Origin: Pseudoxanthomonas indica
Lineage (GTDB): Bacteria; Pseudomonadota; Gammaproteobacteria; Xanthomonadales; Xanthomonadaceae
Reading direction: 5' to 3'
Assembly (NCBI RefSeq): GCF_900167565.1
Contig: NZ_FUZV01000001.1
Location: 1,961,001 to 2,025,000, forward strand
Length of the DNA: 64,000 bases
Shown: positions 41,962-58,001 of the stretch, in pieces
Layout of the letters: each line of letters opens with the position of its first letter
Position numbering within the stretch: the stretch's first letter is position 1
Position numbers and translations under genes: made by a program
Notes under the pieces: model-generated
The model's input: only the letters and a program-made list of their open reading frames with translations
What the model was told of the DNA's origin: nothing
Database searches by the model: none

Positions 41962-42921
41962 TCAGCCGCCGTGGGCGGCCTTGGCCGGGCGCGCCAGGCT
42001 CAGCGCGATGGTCACGCCCAGGATCATCGCCACGCCGGCCAGCGACCACAGCACGGGAATCTTGTAGACGTCGATCAGCAACATCTTGCTGCCGATGAAA
42101 GCCAGCACGATCGCCAGGCCGTAGGGCAGCAGATGGAAACGATCGGCCATGCCGGCCAGCAGGAAGAACATCGCGCGCAGGCCCAGCACCGCGAACACGT
42201 TTGAGGTCAGCACGATGAACGGGTCCGAGGTGATCGCGAAGATCGCCGGGATGCTGTCCACCGCGAAGATCACGTCGGTCACGCCAATCAGCACCAGCAC
42301 CACGAACAGCGGCGTATACCAGCGCACGCCGTCGCGACGCACGCTCAGATCCGCACCGTGATAGTCGGGCGTCAGGCGCAGATGGTTGCGCATCCAGCGC
42401 AGCACCGGGTTCTTCTCCAGGTCCGGCTCCTTGCCGGCGGCAAACCACATCTTGATGCCGGTCAGCAGCAGGAACGCGCCAAACACGTAGAGCAGCCAAT
42501 GGAATTTGGCCAGCAGCGCGGCGCCGGCAAAGATCAGGATGCCGCGCAACACGATCGCGCCCAGCACGCCAATCACCAGCACACGCTGGCGCTGCTCTTC
42601 CGGAACGGCGAAGTAGCTCATCACCATCAGGAACACGAAGATGTTGTCCACCGCCAGCGACTTCTCGACCAGATAGCCGGTCAGGAATTCCAGGCCGACC
42701 TTGTTGGCCATCGCCGCGCCAGCGGTCTCATGCAGGTACCACCACAGGCCGCCGTTGAAGAGCAGCGCCAGGGCTATCCAGCCCAGGCTCCACCACAGCG
42801 CTTCCTTGAAGGTGACCTTGTGCGCGCCACCGTGGCGCATCAGCACCAGGTCGGCCAGCAGGGCCACCAGGACCACGCCGGCAAAGCCAGCCCATAACCA
42901 CGGATTACCGATAGATTCCAT
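41962..42921 (-). CDS. TerC family membrane protein (Alx-like)
   Basis: 319 residues, about nine helices. Conserved acidic residues in the helices, such as EKSLAVDNIFVF and TDVIFAVDSIPAIF, match the TerC/Alx metal-exporter family. The central loop (about 160-190) is cytoplasmic and charged. An upstream yybP-ykoY riboswitch strongly links the gene to Mn2+ export, as for E. coli alx. Confidence 0.93.
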   Translation of the reverse strand: MESIGNPWLWAGFAGVVLVALLADLVLMRHGGAHKVTFKEALWWSLGWIALALLFNGGLWWYLHETAGAAMANKVGLEFLTGYLVEKSLAVDNIFVFLMVMSYFAVPEEQRQRVLVIGVLGAIVLRGILIFAGAALLAKFHWLLYVFGAFLLLTGIKMWFAAGKEPDLEKNPVLRWMRNHLRLTPDYHGADLSVRRDGVRWYTPLFVVLVLIGVTDVIFAVDSIPAIFAITSDPFIVLTSNVFAVLGLRAMFFLLAGMADRFHLLPYGLAIVLAFIGSKMLLIDVYKIPVLWSLAGVAMILGVTIALSLARPAKAAHGG

Positions 42922-42990
42922 TGCGATTCCCAGACAGGTGAAGGGTGGGCCGCAGGGACGGTCAAGCAGGGAATCGAGGGGATTCCGGAC

Positions 42991-43017
42991 AGACCTTCGC
43001 CAAAACGGCGAAGGTCT
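42991..43017 (-). promoter_or_regulatory. alternative hairpin of the Mn2+ riboswitch
   Basis: Eleven-base perfect arms (42991-43001, 43007-43017) with a GUUUU loop. Its 5' arm contains the P1 3' strand, so it and P1 are mutually exclusive. There is no U-run after it, so it would act on translation, pausing or Rho rather than as an intrinsic terminator. Confidence 0.65.
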
Positions 43018-43109
43018 CGCTCACAACCGTCCGGGACGATTGCCGTGGGACCGGAGCATTACGCTCGAATTGACGGCCTTCACGCTTGGGAGCTACTCCC
43101 CTTCTGCCG
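43006..43109 (-). ncRNA. yybP-ykoY (manganese) riboswitch upstream of terC
   Basis: On the minus strand, about 104 nt. The conserved core AAGGGGAGUAGC (from 43103) is followed by GCCGUCAA and GAGCGAGACCUUCGCC. P1 forms between CGGC(A)GAAGG (43109-43100) and CCUUCGCCG (43014-43006) with one bulged A. The 3' P1 arm can instead join an 11-bp hairpin (43017-42991). The TerC ATG is 85 bases further. The pattern matches the Mn2+-sensing family. Confidence 0.85.
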
Positions 43110-43112
43110 GCG

Positions 43113-43141
43113 ATTCTCCCGGTCATGGCGGTCGCGGTCAA
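43113..43141 (-). promoter_or_regulatory. promoter for the terC riboswitch transcript
   Basis: On the minus strand TTGACC (43136-43141), 17-base spacer, GAGAAT (43113-43118). Predicted start about 43106, right at the 5' end of the aptamer P1. Confidence 0.6.
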
Positions 43142-43164
43142 CCGTGGCGGGTAAAATGTGCGGC

Positions 43165-44334
43165 ATGAACAGTCAAAACCCCGTTGTCCGCCTGAAGAAC
43201 GCCTGGCGCTCCAGCCACCCGTGGATTTTCCAGAAACTGGTGGAGAAGCCCGCCCAGAAACCCAAGCCCGGCAGCATTGTCGAGGTCGTCGGCGTGGACG
43301 GCGAGTGGATTGGCCGCGGCTTCTACAACGGCCATTCGCGGATCGCGGTGCGCATCCTGGAGACGCATCCGGAGGTGCCGGTCGACGCCGGCTGGTTCTC
43401 GCGCAAGATTGCCGAGGCCGTTTCGCTGCGCCGCGACCTGCTCAAGCTGGACGGCATCACCAACGCCTGGCGCGTGGTCCATGCCGAAGGCGACGGCCTG
43501 TCCGGGCTGGTGGTGGATCGCTATGGCGATCTGCTGGTGGTGGAGTTCTTCAGCGCCGGCATGTTCCGCCACCGCGAGTGGATCTACGAGGCCCTGCTGG
43601 AGCAGTTCCCCGGCGCACGCTTCTACAGCTTTGCCGAAGAGCACATCCAGAAGCAGGAAAGCTTCGACTTCCGCGCGCCGGATCCGGTGCCACCCTCGGT
43701 CATTAGCGAGAACGGCATCAAGTTCCGCGCCGATCCGGCCGGCGCGCACAAGACCGGCTTCTTCGCCGATCAGCGCGAGAACCGCGAGTGGCTCTCGCAC
43801 CAGTGCCAGGACAAGCGCGTGCTCGATCTGTGCTGCAACACTGGCGGCTTTGCGGTGTACGCGGCCGCGCGCGGCGCCAGCGAAGTGGTGGGCGTGGACA
43901 TCGACGAAGACGTGATCGAGATCGCCAAGGGCAATGCGCGCCTGAACGAGGTCAAGCCGAAGTTCGTCCAGGCGGACATCTTTCCGTACCTGCGCGATGC
44001 CGCCAACCGCGGCGATCAGTACGACGTGGTGATCCTGGATCCGGCCAAGATGACCCGCGATCGCGAGCAGGTGATCAACGCGCTCAAGAAATACCTGGAC
44101 ATGAACAAGCTCGCGCTGGGCGTGGTCAAGCCCGGTGGCCTGCTGGCCACCTTCTCCTGCACCGGCCTGGTCAGCGAGGAACAGTTCCTGGACATGCTGC
44201 GCCGCGCGGCCTACTTCTCAGGGCGCACGATCCAGATCCTCAAGGTGTCCGGCGCCGGCCCGGACCATCCGTTCATGGCGCACGTGCAGGAATCGCGCTA
44301 TCTCAAGGCGGTGTTCTGCCGCGTGCTGGATTGA
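43165..44334 (+). CDS. rlmI: 23S rRNA (cytosine-5)-methyltransferase RlmI-type
   Basis: 389 residues from the ATG at 43165. N-terminal PUA domain (about 1-75), then a class I SAM methyltransferase with VLDLCCNTGGFAVYAA (motif I, about 215-230) and a later DPAKMTRDR (motif IV). In E. coli RlmI makes m5C1962 in 23S rRNA. Divergent from the riboswitch-controlled terC. The 5' region overlaps the terC promoter area. Confidence 0.9.
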   Translation: MNSQNPVVRLKNAWRSSHPWIFQKLVEKPAQKPKPGSIVEVVGVDGEWIGRGFYNGHSRIAVRILETHPEVPVDAGWFSRKIAEAVSLRRDLLKLDGITNAWRVVHAEGDGLSGLVVDRYGDLLVVEFFSAGMFRHREWIYEALLEQFPGARFYSFAEEHIQKQESFDFRAPDPVPPSVISENGIKFRADPAGAHKTGFFADQRENREWLSHQCQDKRVLDLCCNTGGFAVYAAARGASEVVGVDIDEDVIEIAKGNARLNEVKPKFVQADIFPYLRDAANRGDQYDVVILDPAKMTRDREQVINALKKYLDMNKLALGVVKPGGLLATFSCTGLVSEEQFLDMLRRAAYFSGRTIQILKVSGAGPDHPFMAHVQESRYLKAVFCRVLD

Positions 44335-56200: not shown

Positions 56201-58001
56201 CGGAACACCCACGGTGGATGGCGCGTTCAACTTCACCGTCACCGCGACCGATGCCTACGGCTTCACGGGTGCGCAGGCCTATGCCTGGACGATCGCGGCC
56301 GCACCGCCGACGACAGCCGAAGACACTGCACACGTCTTGTCGGGGGCGAGCGTCAGCATCGACGTCACCGATAACGACGTTGGCGTCATCACCAGCATCG
56401 CGGTGGTCACGCCGCCGACGCATGGCACGGCCACGGTCAACGGCTTGAACGTGGAGTACACGCCGGCGGCCGGTTACTCGGGCGAGGACAGCTTCACCTA
56501 CACCGCGACGGGTCCGGGCGGCACGTCTGCCGCGGCCACGGTGACGGTGACGGTGAATCCCGTGCCGGTGGCGGTGTCGCGCACGATCAATGCCGCGGCA
56601 GGCATCGCCGTGGAAGTGGAGTTGACCGAAGGCGCGACCGGCGGTCCGTTCACCGGCGCGGCGCTGGTGTCGTTGTCGCCGGCGCAGGCCGGCACGGCGA
56701 CCATCGCCCAGCAGGGAACCGGCGACGATGCGCGTTACGTGCTGACGTTTACGCCTGCGGCTGCGTTCTCCGGCGTGGCCACGGCGACCTTCACCCTCGA
56801 CAACGCGTTTGCCACCTCGGCCGAGGCGAGCATCGAGTTCCAGGTGACATCACGCCCCGACCCGACTCTGGATGCGGAAGTGCAGGGCCTGCTCAACGCG
56901 CAGGCACAGGCAACCCGTCGCTTTGCCAGCGCGCAGCTCAACAATTTCCAGCGCCGCCTGGAGAGCCTGCATCACGGCGGCACCGGCTTCAGCAATGGCG
57001 TCACCTTCCAGGCCAACACGCCGCATTGCCGCGATGGCATGCAGGGTGCGGCCGGTGCGCAAAGCCTGCCCAACCAGCTATGCAACCAGCAGACGAGCGA
57101 ACGCGATGGCGTCAATCCGGGTCTGCGTGATGCGTCGGCGGTGGACGCGGGCAATGCCTCGCAATCCAACAACCCGTTCGGCCTGTGGACCGGCGGCGCC
57201 ATCCGCAGCGGCAACCAGGACAGCCGCAACAATCGCGCGCGCGTGGATTTCGAGACCGATGGCCTGAGTGTCGGTGGCGACTATCGCGTCAATGACCGCT
57301 TCGCCATTGGCCTGGGTCTGGGCTGGGGTCGCGACGACAGCGAGATTGGCAACCAGGGCAGCCGCAGCGAGGGCAAGGCCTACACGCTCGCCGGCTATGC
57401 CAGCTACCACCCGGGCAAGCTGTTCCTGGATGCGCTGGTCGGCTATCAGGACCTGTCGTACGAACTGCGTCGTTACGTCACCGCCAACGGTGGCCATGTC
57501 AGCGGCTCGCGCGATGGTGGCCAGTGGTTTGCTTCGCTGTCCACCGGTGCCGACCTGCAGTACGCCAGCTTCAAGCTGACCCCGTATGCACGCCTGGACC
57601 TGGCACGTGCCACGCTCGATGGCTACACCGAGCAGGGCGATGCGCTGTACGCATTGCACTACCAGGACATGGACGTGGACAGCAGCACCGGCAACCTGGG
57701 CCTGCGCATGGATTTCCAGAAGACCACGAGCTGGGGTGCGCTGACGCCGCAGCTACGTCTGGAGTACCAGTACGACTTCCAGGGCAACGGCAGCGCCACC
57801 ATGCAGTACGCCGACCTGATGTCCGGCCCGTTCTACCGCACCAGCCTGCCGGTGTTCGACCGCAGCCGCTTCCTGCTCGGTATCGGCCTAGGCTTCAACG
57901 CGGACAACGGCCTGTCCACACGCATCGAGTACAACGGCGTGGTGGATGACAGCAACGGCACCGACCACGGCGTGATGCTCAACATCGAAAAGCGTTACTG
58001 A
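53256..58001 (+). CDS. large autotransporter with Ig-like (He_PIG) repeats
   Basis: 1581 residues. Long signal peptide with positive N-region (cleavage after Ala34, ASAWA-Q). Then about ten He_PIG-type Ig repeats of 80-90 residues (phrases like LPAGLSLSSxGVLSGTP and ASGGIAPYSF), interrupted after the third by a THGTAT...YTGPDAFTYTATN domain and followed by a second such domain near residue 1035-1110. A linker with NAQAQATRRFASAQLNNFQRRLE precedes a C-terminal autotransporter barrel (about 1300-1581). It is displayed on the cell surface and probably adhesive. No protease or catalytic motif seen. A terminator follows. Confidence 0.9.
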   Translation: MYRSSPNRPRGRVRAFFVGAVALMSLFLTASAWAQIVITPANLPAATVNSFYSQTFTGSGGSAPYSYQYTGTLPAGVGLSSTGVLSGLPTEAGTFSFTLVATDSNATIGAQAYLLVVDPPTTFLNPVSLSNATVGVPYGESITASGGIAPYSFHVSGGSFPPGLTLSSSGNLTGMPTAGGTYTFTISANGSSTGAGAPHGGSRSYTMSISAAMVTLPGTTLSDAMQGSPYSAALNSASGGTEPYSYAVTTGALPAGLSLNSNGTLTGTPSQSGDFNFEVVATDSSSGTGPYTSAPRGISLRVVAVSPPMVGMAFATVAQNSTSNPITLSISATPPATSVAVATQATHGTATAVGTTISYTPANGYTGPDAFTYTATNAGGTSSPATVSIVVDYPNIVVNAQGSWSAQVGQPFTQTLVWSGGTSPYDSFDVTGMPDGVTVTGTTANSVTISGTPTAAGPFNINARARDSSTGAGPFTVDQLFPMFVAAPTLNLLPGAGALPAATYGAAFAQGFSSSGGVGPYTYGISGSLPAGLSFNTATGQLSGIPEQVGLFNFTVSVSDSSTGMGPFSTSQNYSLQVTGPVFTISPASLPVATAGTYFNQALSTSGGIGPYSYSLFNGPLPQGVTLSASGVISGTPTESGTFNIAIETKDANNLATQALYTWVVNPAAITLSSSGSLDGTAGSLLSATITASGGIAPYSFALISGTLPLGVSFNSLGVLTGTPRSDGNYSLQVRATDQTGSFSERTFLYTIAPATIIVTPPVLPGGTSGTPYSYTLTSAGGIAPYTYAIASGNLPVGTSFSSNGVLSGTPTTPGSYTANIRSTDNAGYNTTVAYTIVISAPTITLAASAPFDGVVGAAQSSTITATGGTGPYRYSVVAGALPVGMSLSSSGVFSGTPVVSGSFNLTLRATDRFDNEGEQTFAYTIAAPAITVAPGTLGNGVRGTAFSQALSASGGIGAYSFAVSAGALPAGVSLSNAGVLSGTPTVDGAFNFTVTATDAYGFTGAQAYAWTIAAAPPTTAEDTAHVLSGASVSIDVTDNDVGVITSIAVVTPPTHGTATVNGLNVEYTPAAGYSGEDSFTYTATGPGGTSAAATVTVTVNPVPVAVSRTINAAAGIAVEVELTEGATGGPFTGAALVSLSPAQAGTATIAQQGTGDDARYVLTFTPAAAFSGVATATFTLDNAFATSAEASIEFQVTSRPDPTLDAEVQGLLNAQAQATRRFASAQLNNFQRRLESLHHGGTGFSNGVTFQANTPHCRDGMQGAAGAQSLPNQLCNQQTSERDGVNPGLRDASAVDAGNASQSNNPFGLWTGGAIRSGNQDSRNNRARVDFETDGLSVGGDYRVNDRFAIGLGLGWGRDDSEIGNQGSRSEGKAYTLAGYASYHPGKLFLDALVGYQDLSYELRRYVTANGGHVSGSRDGGQWFASLSTGADLQYASFKLTPYARLDLARATLDGYTEQGDALYALHYQDMDVDSSTGNLGLRMDFQKTTSWGALTPQLRLEYQYDFQGNGSATMQYADLMSGPFYRTSLPVFDRSRFLLGIGLGFNADNGLSTRIEYNGVVDDSNGTDHGVMLNIEKRY

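Follow-up and report, generated by a model that had tools for sequence, protein, structure and literature searches.

A probable manganese riboswitch of the P2-less alx type in the terC leader of Pseudoxanthomonas indica

What controls the terC-family gene of Pseudoxanthomonas indica that lies in the window analysed here, a stretch of 64,000 nucleotides of contig NZ_FUZV01000001.1? Its leader, read on the minus strand, carries in this order a sigma-70-like promoter, an aptamer-like structure and a hairpin (H1), the last two together covering positions 43109-42991. A preliminary description had taken this leader for a Mn2+-responsive yybP-ykoY riboswitch and had proposed a search with the Rfam model of the class as a check. 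That search came out empty: no Rfam family reaches gathering in the whole window, and the yybP-ykoY model, RF00080 (cut-off 45 bits), gives no match to 42900-43250 at E up to 10. As a negative test, however, it is invalid, because the leader of E. coli alx (L308 399-530), which is an accepted, Mn2+-activated member of the class (available text of PMC9603457), leaves RF00080 silent at E up to 10 as well. We take the RF00080 score, then, as a limit of the Rfam model and not as a defining feature of the riboswitch class. The RefSeq record of E. coli has no riboswitch feature at the alx leader.

Two other covariance models bear on the question. R2 was trained on 67 of the elements listed by a motif scan of species genomes (see below), none of its training records being named as Xanthomonadales and one (L222) being named only as a gammaproteobacterium; over the whole 3.96-Mb genome it returns a single match, the terC leader, at 55.3 bits and an E of 9.5e-12 (its E-values are rough owing to a short calibration). 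R1, a clade-trained model, scores the same aptamer at 97.2 bits. The alx leader obtains 55 bits with R1 and 57.2 bits with R2, two enterobacterial leaders (L182 and L239, the latter pointing to alx) having been among the training elements of R2. Of 31 RF00080-annotated loci, R1 finds 12 at E 0.01 and 29 at E 1. A weak R1 match elsewhere in the window (56673-56779) is without the L1 motif and was put down to chance.

The core motifs and the closing helix P1, which the preliminary description had reported, are present: L1, CGUCA, P1, P1.2, P3, L3, the capping stem and P4 are all legible on the minus strand (Table 1). The L1 motif GGGGAGUAG stands opposite RAGACC (43101-43093 and 43018-43013), and the CGUCA of L3, an adenosine of which coordinates Mn according to the available text of PMC6754395, is invariant in 74/74 leaders of set A1, whose selection pattern does not demand it. 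Because exact matches to GGGGAGTAGC and [AG]AGACCTT were the selection rule for the 76 leaders behind A1, no variation is possible in those columns. In the R2 alignment 93.8% of the cells are paired, against 31-47% when the structure is slid, and in the 74 distinct terC leaders 93.1% against 31-49%, the structures having been derived by us from related sequences, which gives them an advantage over their slid versions. Cells changed on both sides number 224 in the 74 leaders and 75 in shuffles, and all five helices have both-side changes among the 67 non-clade elements. P1 and P1.2 are nearly invariant within the 74 leaders and draw their covariation support from held-out leaders and other lineages: the first pair of P1.2, which the scan pattern did not impose, is kept in 81 of 82 readable elements among the matches listed (73 G-C, 8 A-U), and the first variable pair of P1 in 79 of 82 elements compared to 51.9 in shuffles. 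RNAalifold, left unaided on the terC leaders, recovered P3 and the capping stem, did not predict P4 and chose a GGGAG/CUCCC hairpin instead of P1 and P1.2. The leader precedes, moreover, a manganese-related gene, TerC. On the strength of the covariance models, of the covariation and of the conservation, we consider with high confidence that the terC leader is the aptamer of a manganese-sensing yybP-ykoY riboswitch of the E. coli alx type, and from this we infer the response to Mn2+ itself.

Table 1. Parts of the terC locus in window positions, with what supports each
Feature	Positions	Strand	Basis or remark
terC-family gene, 319 aa	41962..42921	-	presumed regulated gene; Pfam TerC 8.5e-52
GGGAAUC, Shine-Dalgarno-like region	42925..42931	-	complementary to 42975-42969
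Candidate anti-Shine-Dalgarno GAUUCCC	42969..42975	-	its 16-nt segment has z -3.17 in the window; family-wide signal
H1, 11-bp hairpin exclusive with P1, without U-run	42991..43017	-	shuffle test, terminator check, folding
Probable Mn2+ (yybP-ykoY) riboswitch aptamer, three-way junction (P2-less, alx-type)	43005..43109	-	models R2 and R1
P1 3' strand CCUUC, part of H1 5' arm	43010..43014	-	sequence, shuffle test, folding
L1 3' side	43018-43015	-	
P4 hairpin GCAAUCG/CGGUUGU	43023..43043	-	covariation
P3 arm	43044..43084	-	strong covariation
P3 arm parts: lower stem CGUG/CACG, upper stem GGCCG/CGGUC, capping stem GAGC/GCUC			
L3 UCAAUUC	43073-43067	-	within P3 arm
GCCGUCAA	43077-43070	-	sequence
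P1.2 5' strand GCUC, partner GAGC 43022-43019	43090..43093	-	G-C/A-U exchange in held-out leaders and across phyla
L1 5' side GGAGUA	43094..43099	-	invariant in sets A1 and A3, as the selection patterns of both demand
L1 GGGGAGUAGC	43101-43092	-	sequence
P1 5' strand GAAGG	43100..43104	-	sequence; P1 covariation in related sets
Sigma-70-like promoter TTGACC (43141-43136), 17 nt, GAGAAT (43118-43113)	43113..43141	-	score 9/12; conserved in relatives

The comparison with other xanthomonad terC leaders points the same way. TerC occurs in 91 of 149 genomes of the family (Xanthomonadaceae), with 93 matches, and leaders were taken from 90 of these, omitting both matches of G014 and a 41% paralogue in G057. 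The full pattern is found in 76 of the 90 and R1 adds 7 more, so that 83 carry the aptamer; the remaining 7 (L088 and the distant TerC genes L116-L121) have no R1 match at E up to 1. The 7 that R1 adds were held out of its training and score 69-87 bits with it, and in the four of them with printed alignments GUAAC and GAGU or GGGU replace GUAGC and GAGC, i.e., an A-U exchange in P1.2. Two genomes have second loci (L153 of G087 and L154 of G136), which makes two P2-less switches per genome before different TerC paralogues, this second type having GUAGCCC with GGGC in P1.2. In L164 (about 246-330) there is, judged by eye, an apparent inverted-repeat insert at the place of P2, between GUAGCUCCC and P3, and a four-way junction may have been regained there. 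As to earlier work on the family, sRNA-Xoo1 of X. oryzae can be dismissed as a terC leader, being located before thiC in the available text, and the available part of a X. campestris sRNA study gives one yybP-ykoY element by Rfam.

In the window, GUAGC and CGUCA lie 16 nt apart, which leaves no room for helix P2 and hence implies a three-way junction, whereas the crystal structures of the yybP-ykoY family are four-way junctions with P2 (available text of PMC6754395 and PMC11087558). Thus the X. oryzae yebN (PDB 6N2V) and L. lactis yoaB riboswitches share the L1 and L3 motifs with the window, the L3 of yoaB (UCAAUUC) being identical to that of the window in the available text of PMC6754395, and, unlike it, are four-way junctions with P2 according to the two papers. 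Likewise, the only RF00080 match in the organism's own genome at E 0.001 (L001, 40.1 bits, below the 45-bit cut-off) has the L1, P1 and P3 elements of the window and differs in the presence of P2 and in a long L3, UCAACACACUUGG. This element (L001 1501-1594, C1:1038314-1038407) appears to be a second Mn2+ riboswitch, upstream of a GDT1/UPF0016-type gene.

The P2-less form is no novelty of the window's lineage, as it is present in alx and also in Bacillota, Nitrospirota and other Proteobacteria. The motif scan of species genomes, which allowed GUARC and CGUCA to stand 12-21 nt apart, gave at least 119 stretches; the 80 loci listed are mostly from Bacillota, with Nitrospirota and Proteobacteria besides (phylum and order labels being assigned by us from record titles), and 76 of 83 elements among the matches listed have a spacing of 12-16 nt. 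Since this spacing is so frequent and alx itself has no P2, we do not take P2 as defining. In the records L180, L230 and L248 two such elements lie about 0.5 to 1.3 kb apart. Among the matches listed, the downstream open reading frames (ORFs) were TerC in 51 of the 73 scored and P-type ATPases in 5, with the reservation that they were picked automatically and that some are wrong genes. In the family, the ORFs behind RF00080 loci (n=30) are MntP (14) and GDT1 (14), TerC being found at none and the other two looking like wrong picks, and those behind R1-found loci are TerC in 21 of 21. A strict link between the presence of P2 and the type of gene had nevertheless to be given up: it is not absolute, because two of these 21 TerC loci (L176 and L177, outside the order) have P2-length spacing. 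RF00080 matched none of 18 P2-less loci at gathering, and at E up to 1 it gave sub-threshold matches of 27-44 bits to 4 of 8. We found no account of P2-less members in the open-access papers searched, and the form may already be described elsewhere.

The nearest known system is the Mn2+/pH riboswitch of E. coli alx, which, like the window, has a TerC gene downstream and a P2-less aptamer that RF00080 misses; its P1 3' strand doubles as H1 (GACCUUGCC/GGCGAGGUC) and, by eye, no U-run follows. It differs from the window in its long P4 and in a further hairpin, followed by a U-run, ahead of the start codon. In the window H1 is an exact stem of 11 bp (43017-43007 with 43001-42991, loop GUUUU) which ends 69 nt from the terC start, and P1 and H1 are mutually exclusive, as they share a strand. 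The preliminary description was exact on this point, and the arrangement is general: a stem of at least 8 bp arises from the P1 3' strand in 65 of 76 terC leaders, against 61/1520 with the downstream sequence shuffled. Neither a U-run after H1 nor any terminator-like site was found in 42900-43250. If a U-run is defined as at least 5 U among the 8 nt that follow an H1 stem of 8 bp or longer, none of the 76 leaders has one, 4 U being reached in 6/76 and exceeded in none.

The preliminary description saw in the missing U-run a departure from many members, and this is right with respect to Bacillota. Bacillota P2-less switches before TerC (ykoY-like) genes resemble the window in the aptamer helices, L1, L3 and the position of H1, and differ from it in the U-run: among the matches listed, 50 of 52 readable elements have the H1 stem and 43 the U-run too, so that H1 looks in them like the terminator itself. 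Nitrospirota have the stem in 4 of 5 elements listed, all four with a U-run. Among the Proteobacteria listed, where 11 of 16 elements from other orders and 7 of 8 from Xanthomonadales have the stem, the U-run is found in none (0/24), i.e., its lack is the usual state there as in alx. This split makes a shift from transcriptional to other control testable by comparison.

A promoter placing the RNA 5' end at P1 had likewise been proposed, and this is supported. Promoter-like sites scoring at least 8/12 are found in 47 of 76 terC leaders (the window included) compared to 31/1520 shuffles, with 7-11 nt from the end of the -10 box to P1, so that an RNA start at P1 is plausible. P1 can be extended by CGGC (43109-43106) with GCCG (43009-43006) and a bulged A, which requires a transcription start that far upstream. 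Divergently, a SAM-dependent methyltransferase gene with a PUA-like domain occupies 43165-44334, its ATG being 23 bp beyond the -35 box of the terC promoter.

How would such a leader act on its gene? We think it probable that it is a Mn2+-activated, alx-like cis-regulatory RNA built on P1/H1 exclusivity and on masking of the Shine-Dalgarno (SD) site; within the full mechanism the direction and strand logic are likely to be correct, and the translational step somewhat less so. The transcript would begin at P1, and as soon as the polymerase has cleared the P1 3' strand, the aptamer would be free to form. Mn2+ would dock L1 onto L3, so that P1 is held; without Mn2+ the much stabler H1 would capture the P1 3' strand, the segment directly after H1 would pair with the SD region, no TerC would be translated and the untranslated, C-rich leader would then be accessible to Rho. 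As Mn2+, by holding P1, would prevent H1 and the masking, it would raise TerC. In E. coli, alx reporters rise 3- and 6.5-fold at 1 and 2 mM Mn2+ in a mntP deletion strain, in an unbuffered medium whose pH rises as well (available text of PMC9603457). In this chain we infer Mn2+ binding, the ON direction, the translational step, Rho and the coupling of H1 to the SD helix.

Folding with ViennaRNA agrees with the first steps. When the RNA ends after the P1 3' strand, the structure of minimum free energy is the aptamer (P1 probability 0.47, competing GGGAG/CUCCC hairpin 0.65), and once the leader is complete the probabilities are 1.0 for H1 and 0 for P1. The contrast, as computed, is what a co-transcriptional switch with Mn2+ holding P1 needs, and, given the loss of P1 at full length, the model depends on timing and metal binding, both absent from the energy model. 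The competing hairpin (GGGAG-UAG-CUCCC, 43100-43088) would cover L1; of the 74 leaders, 69 and 70 keep the two C that follow CUC, although these have no partner in the aptamer.

For the translational step, the 26 nt after H1 match the SD region over 5 nt in 41 of 63 leaders (14.2 expected), over 6 nt in 23 of 63 (3.4 expected) and over 7 nt in 7 of 63 (0.7 expected), counts for which 13 of the 76 leaders were omitted (no H1 stem or insufficient length) and related leaders were treated as independent; in the window the pair is GAUUCCC/GGGAAUC. Because these matches exceed shuffles we favour translational control, which they suggest. SD pairing with the P4 3' segment, the H1 5' arm and the H1 3' arm has family mean z of 0.02, 0.21 and 0.28 (in the window -2.66, 0.87 and -0.27), and with L1 and the linker of -0.53 and -0.76, the linker value being the one that led to the match counts. 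The P4 3' segment is thus a rival partner in the window alone, its complementarity not being conserved. Strand exchange between the H1 3' arm and the leader downstream of it gave a mean z of -0.50 over 65 leaders (+0.27 in the window), and the downstream leader against the P4 3' segment, the H1 5' arm and L1 gave -0.09, -0.07 and +0.81. These tests being empty family-wide, the coupling between H1 and the SD helix is without support in the sequence.

Behind the same aptamer Rho-dependent termination could do the work instead of SD masking, with H1 or the C-rich linker as the Rho site when Mn2+ is lacking. The linker has a C/G ratio of 2.07 in the window and a median of 1.4 in the 76 leaders, as opposed to 0.84 over the opening 90 nt of the ORF, and at E. 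coli mntP Rho does act and is partly relieved by Mn2+ (available text of PMC11647493), which together make Rho a likely companion. As a substitute for masking it seems to us possible and rather unlikely, since SD complementarity is more specific than base composition and the two routes are compatible, mntP employing both according to the same text.

A less probable alternative, and one we rate low, is intrinsic termination at a further hairpin close to the start codon, in which H1 would act as anti-antiterminator. The preliminary description had the switch work without an intrinsic terminator, and this is correct for the window, where no second terminator hairpin was found in 42900-43250, and does not extend to the family: a separate terminator-like hairpin with a U-run lies nearer the start codon in 15 of 76 terC leaders against 14/1520 shuffles (start codons were picked by script and at least one, that of L014, is wrong), as it does by eye in alx. 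The platform may therefore be transcriptional in some relatives. In L027, L028, L030, L064, L067, L078, L083, L108 and others such a hairpin stands just before the SD site. The 5' arm of the second hairpin has, in a few relatives, a possible partner in the H1 3' arm; an antiterminator pairing of this kind is, however, unsupported family-wide (the mean z of -0.50 above) and was rejected.

That the leader descends from the riboswitch and has drifted to another ligand or signal, e.g., pH alone, we regard as very improbable. The ligand cannot be read from the sequence, and alx responds to alkaline pH too (available text of PMC9603457). Against drift, the window retains L1 and an L3 that has both the invariant adenosine and the sequence of the L. 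lactis loop, and TerC genes are linked to Mn in other bacteria (available text of PMC10550928 and PMC13274385). A functionless chance match, for which only the silence of Rfam would speak, is practically negligible and is refuted by the covariation of the helices, with the motif in 83 of 90 terC leaders and R2, whose training records lie outside the clade by name, matching the leader.

Returning to the Mn2+-activated, SD-masking switch, one may speculate on its history, tentatively and with more doubt than belief: Proteobacterial switches of the alx/terC type may have retained the terminator hairpin that captures P1 while losing its U-run, and may have turned it into a spacer offering the anti-SD segment to the ribosome-binding site. 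In Xanthomonadales, L1, which binds the metal, may also be covered by GGGAG-UAG-CUCCC as long as no metal is bound. Combined with the lack of P2, these traits would make them a separate, under-annotated TerC subclass.

In conclusion, these results would add to a known regulon a Mn-controlled TerC gene and, by extension, the genes behind 83 of the 90 terC leaders of the family. The Rfam model misses the P2-less form, including alx and 18 of 18 such loci at its cut-off, and annotation based on RF00080 therefore undercounts the regulation of TerC.
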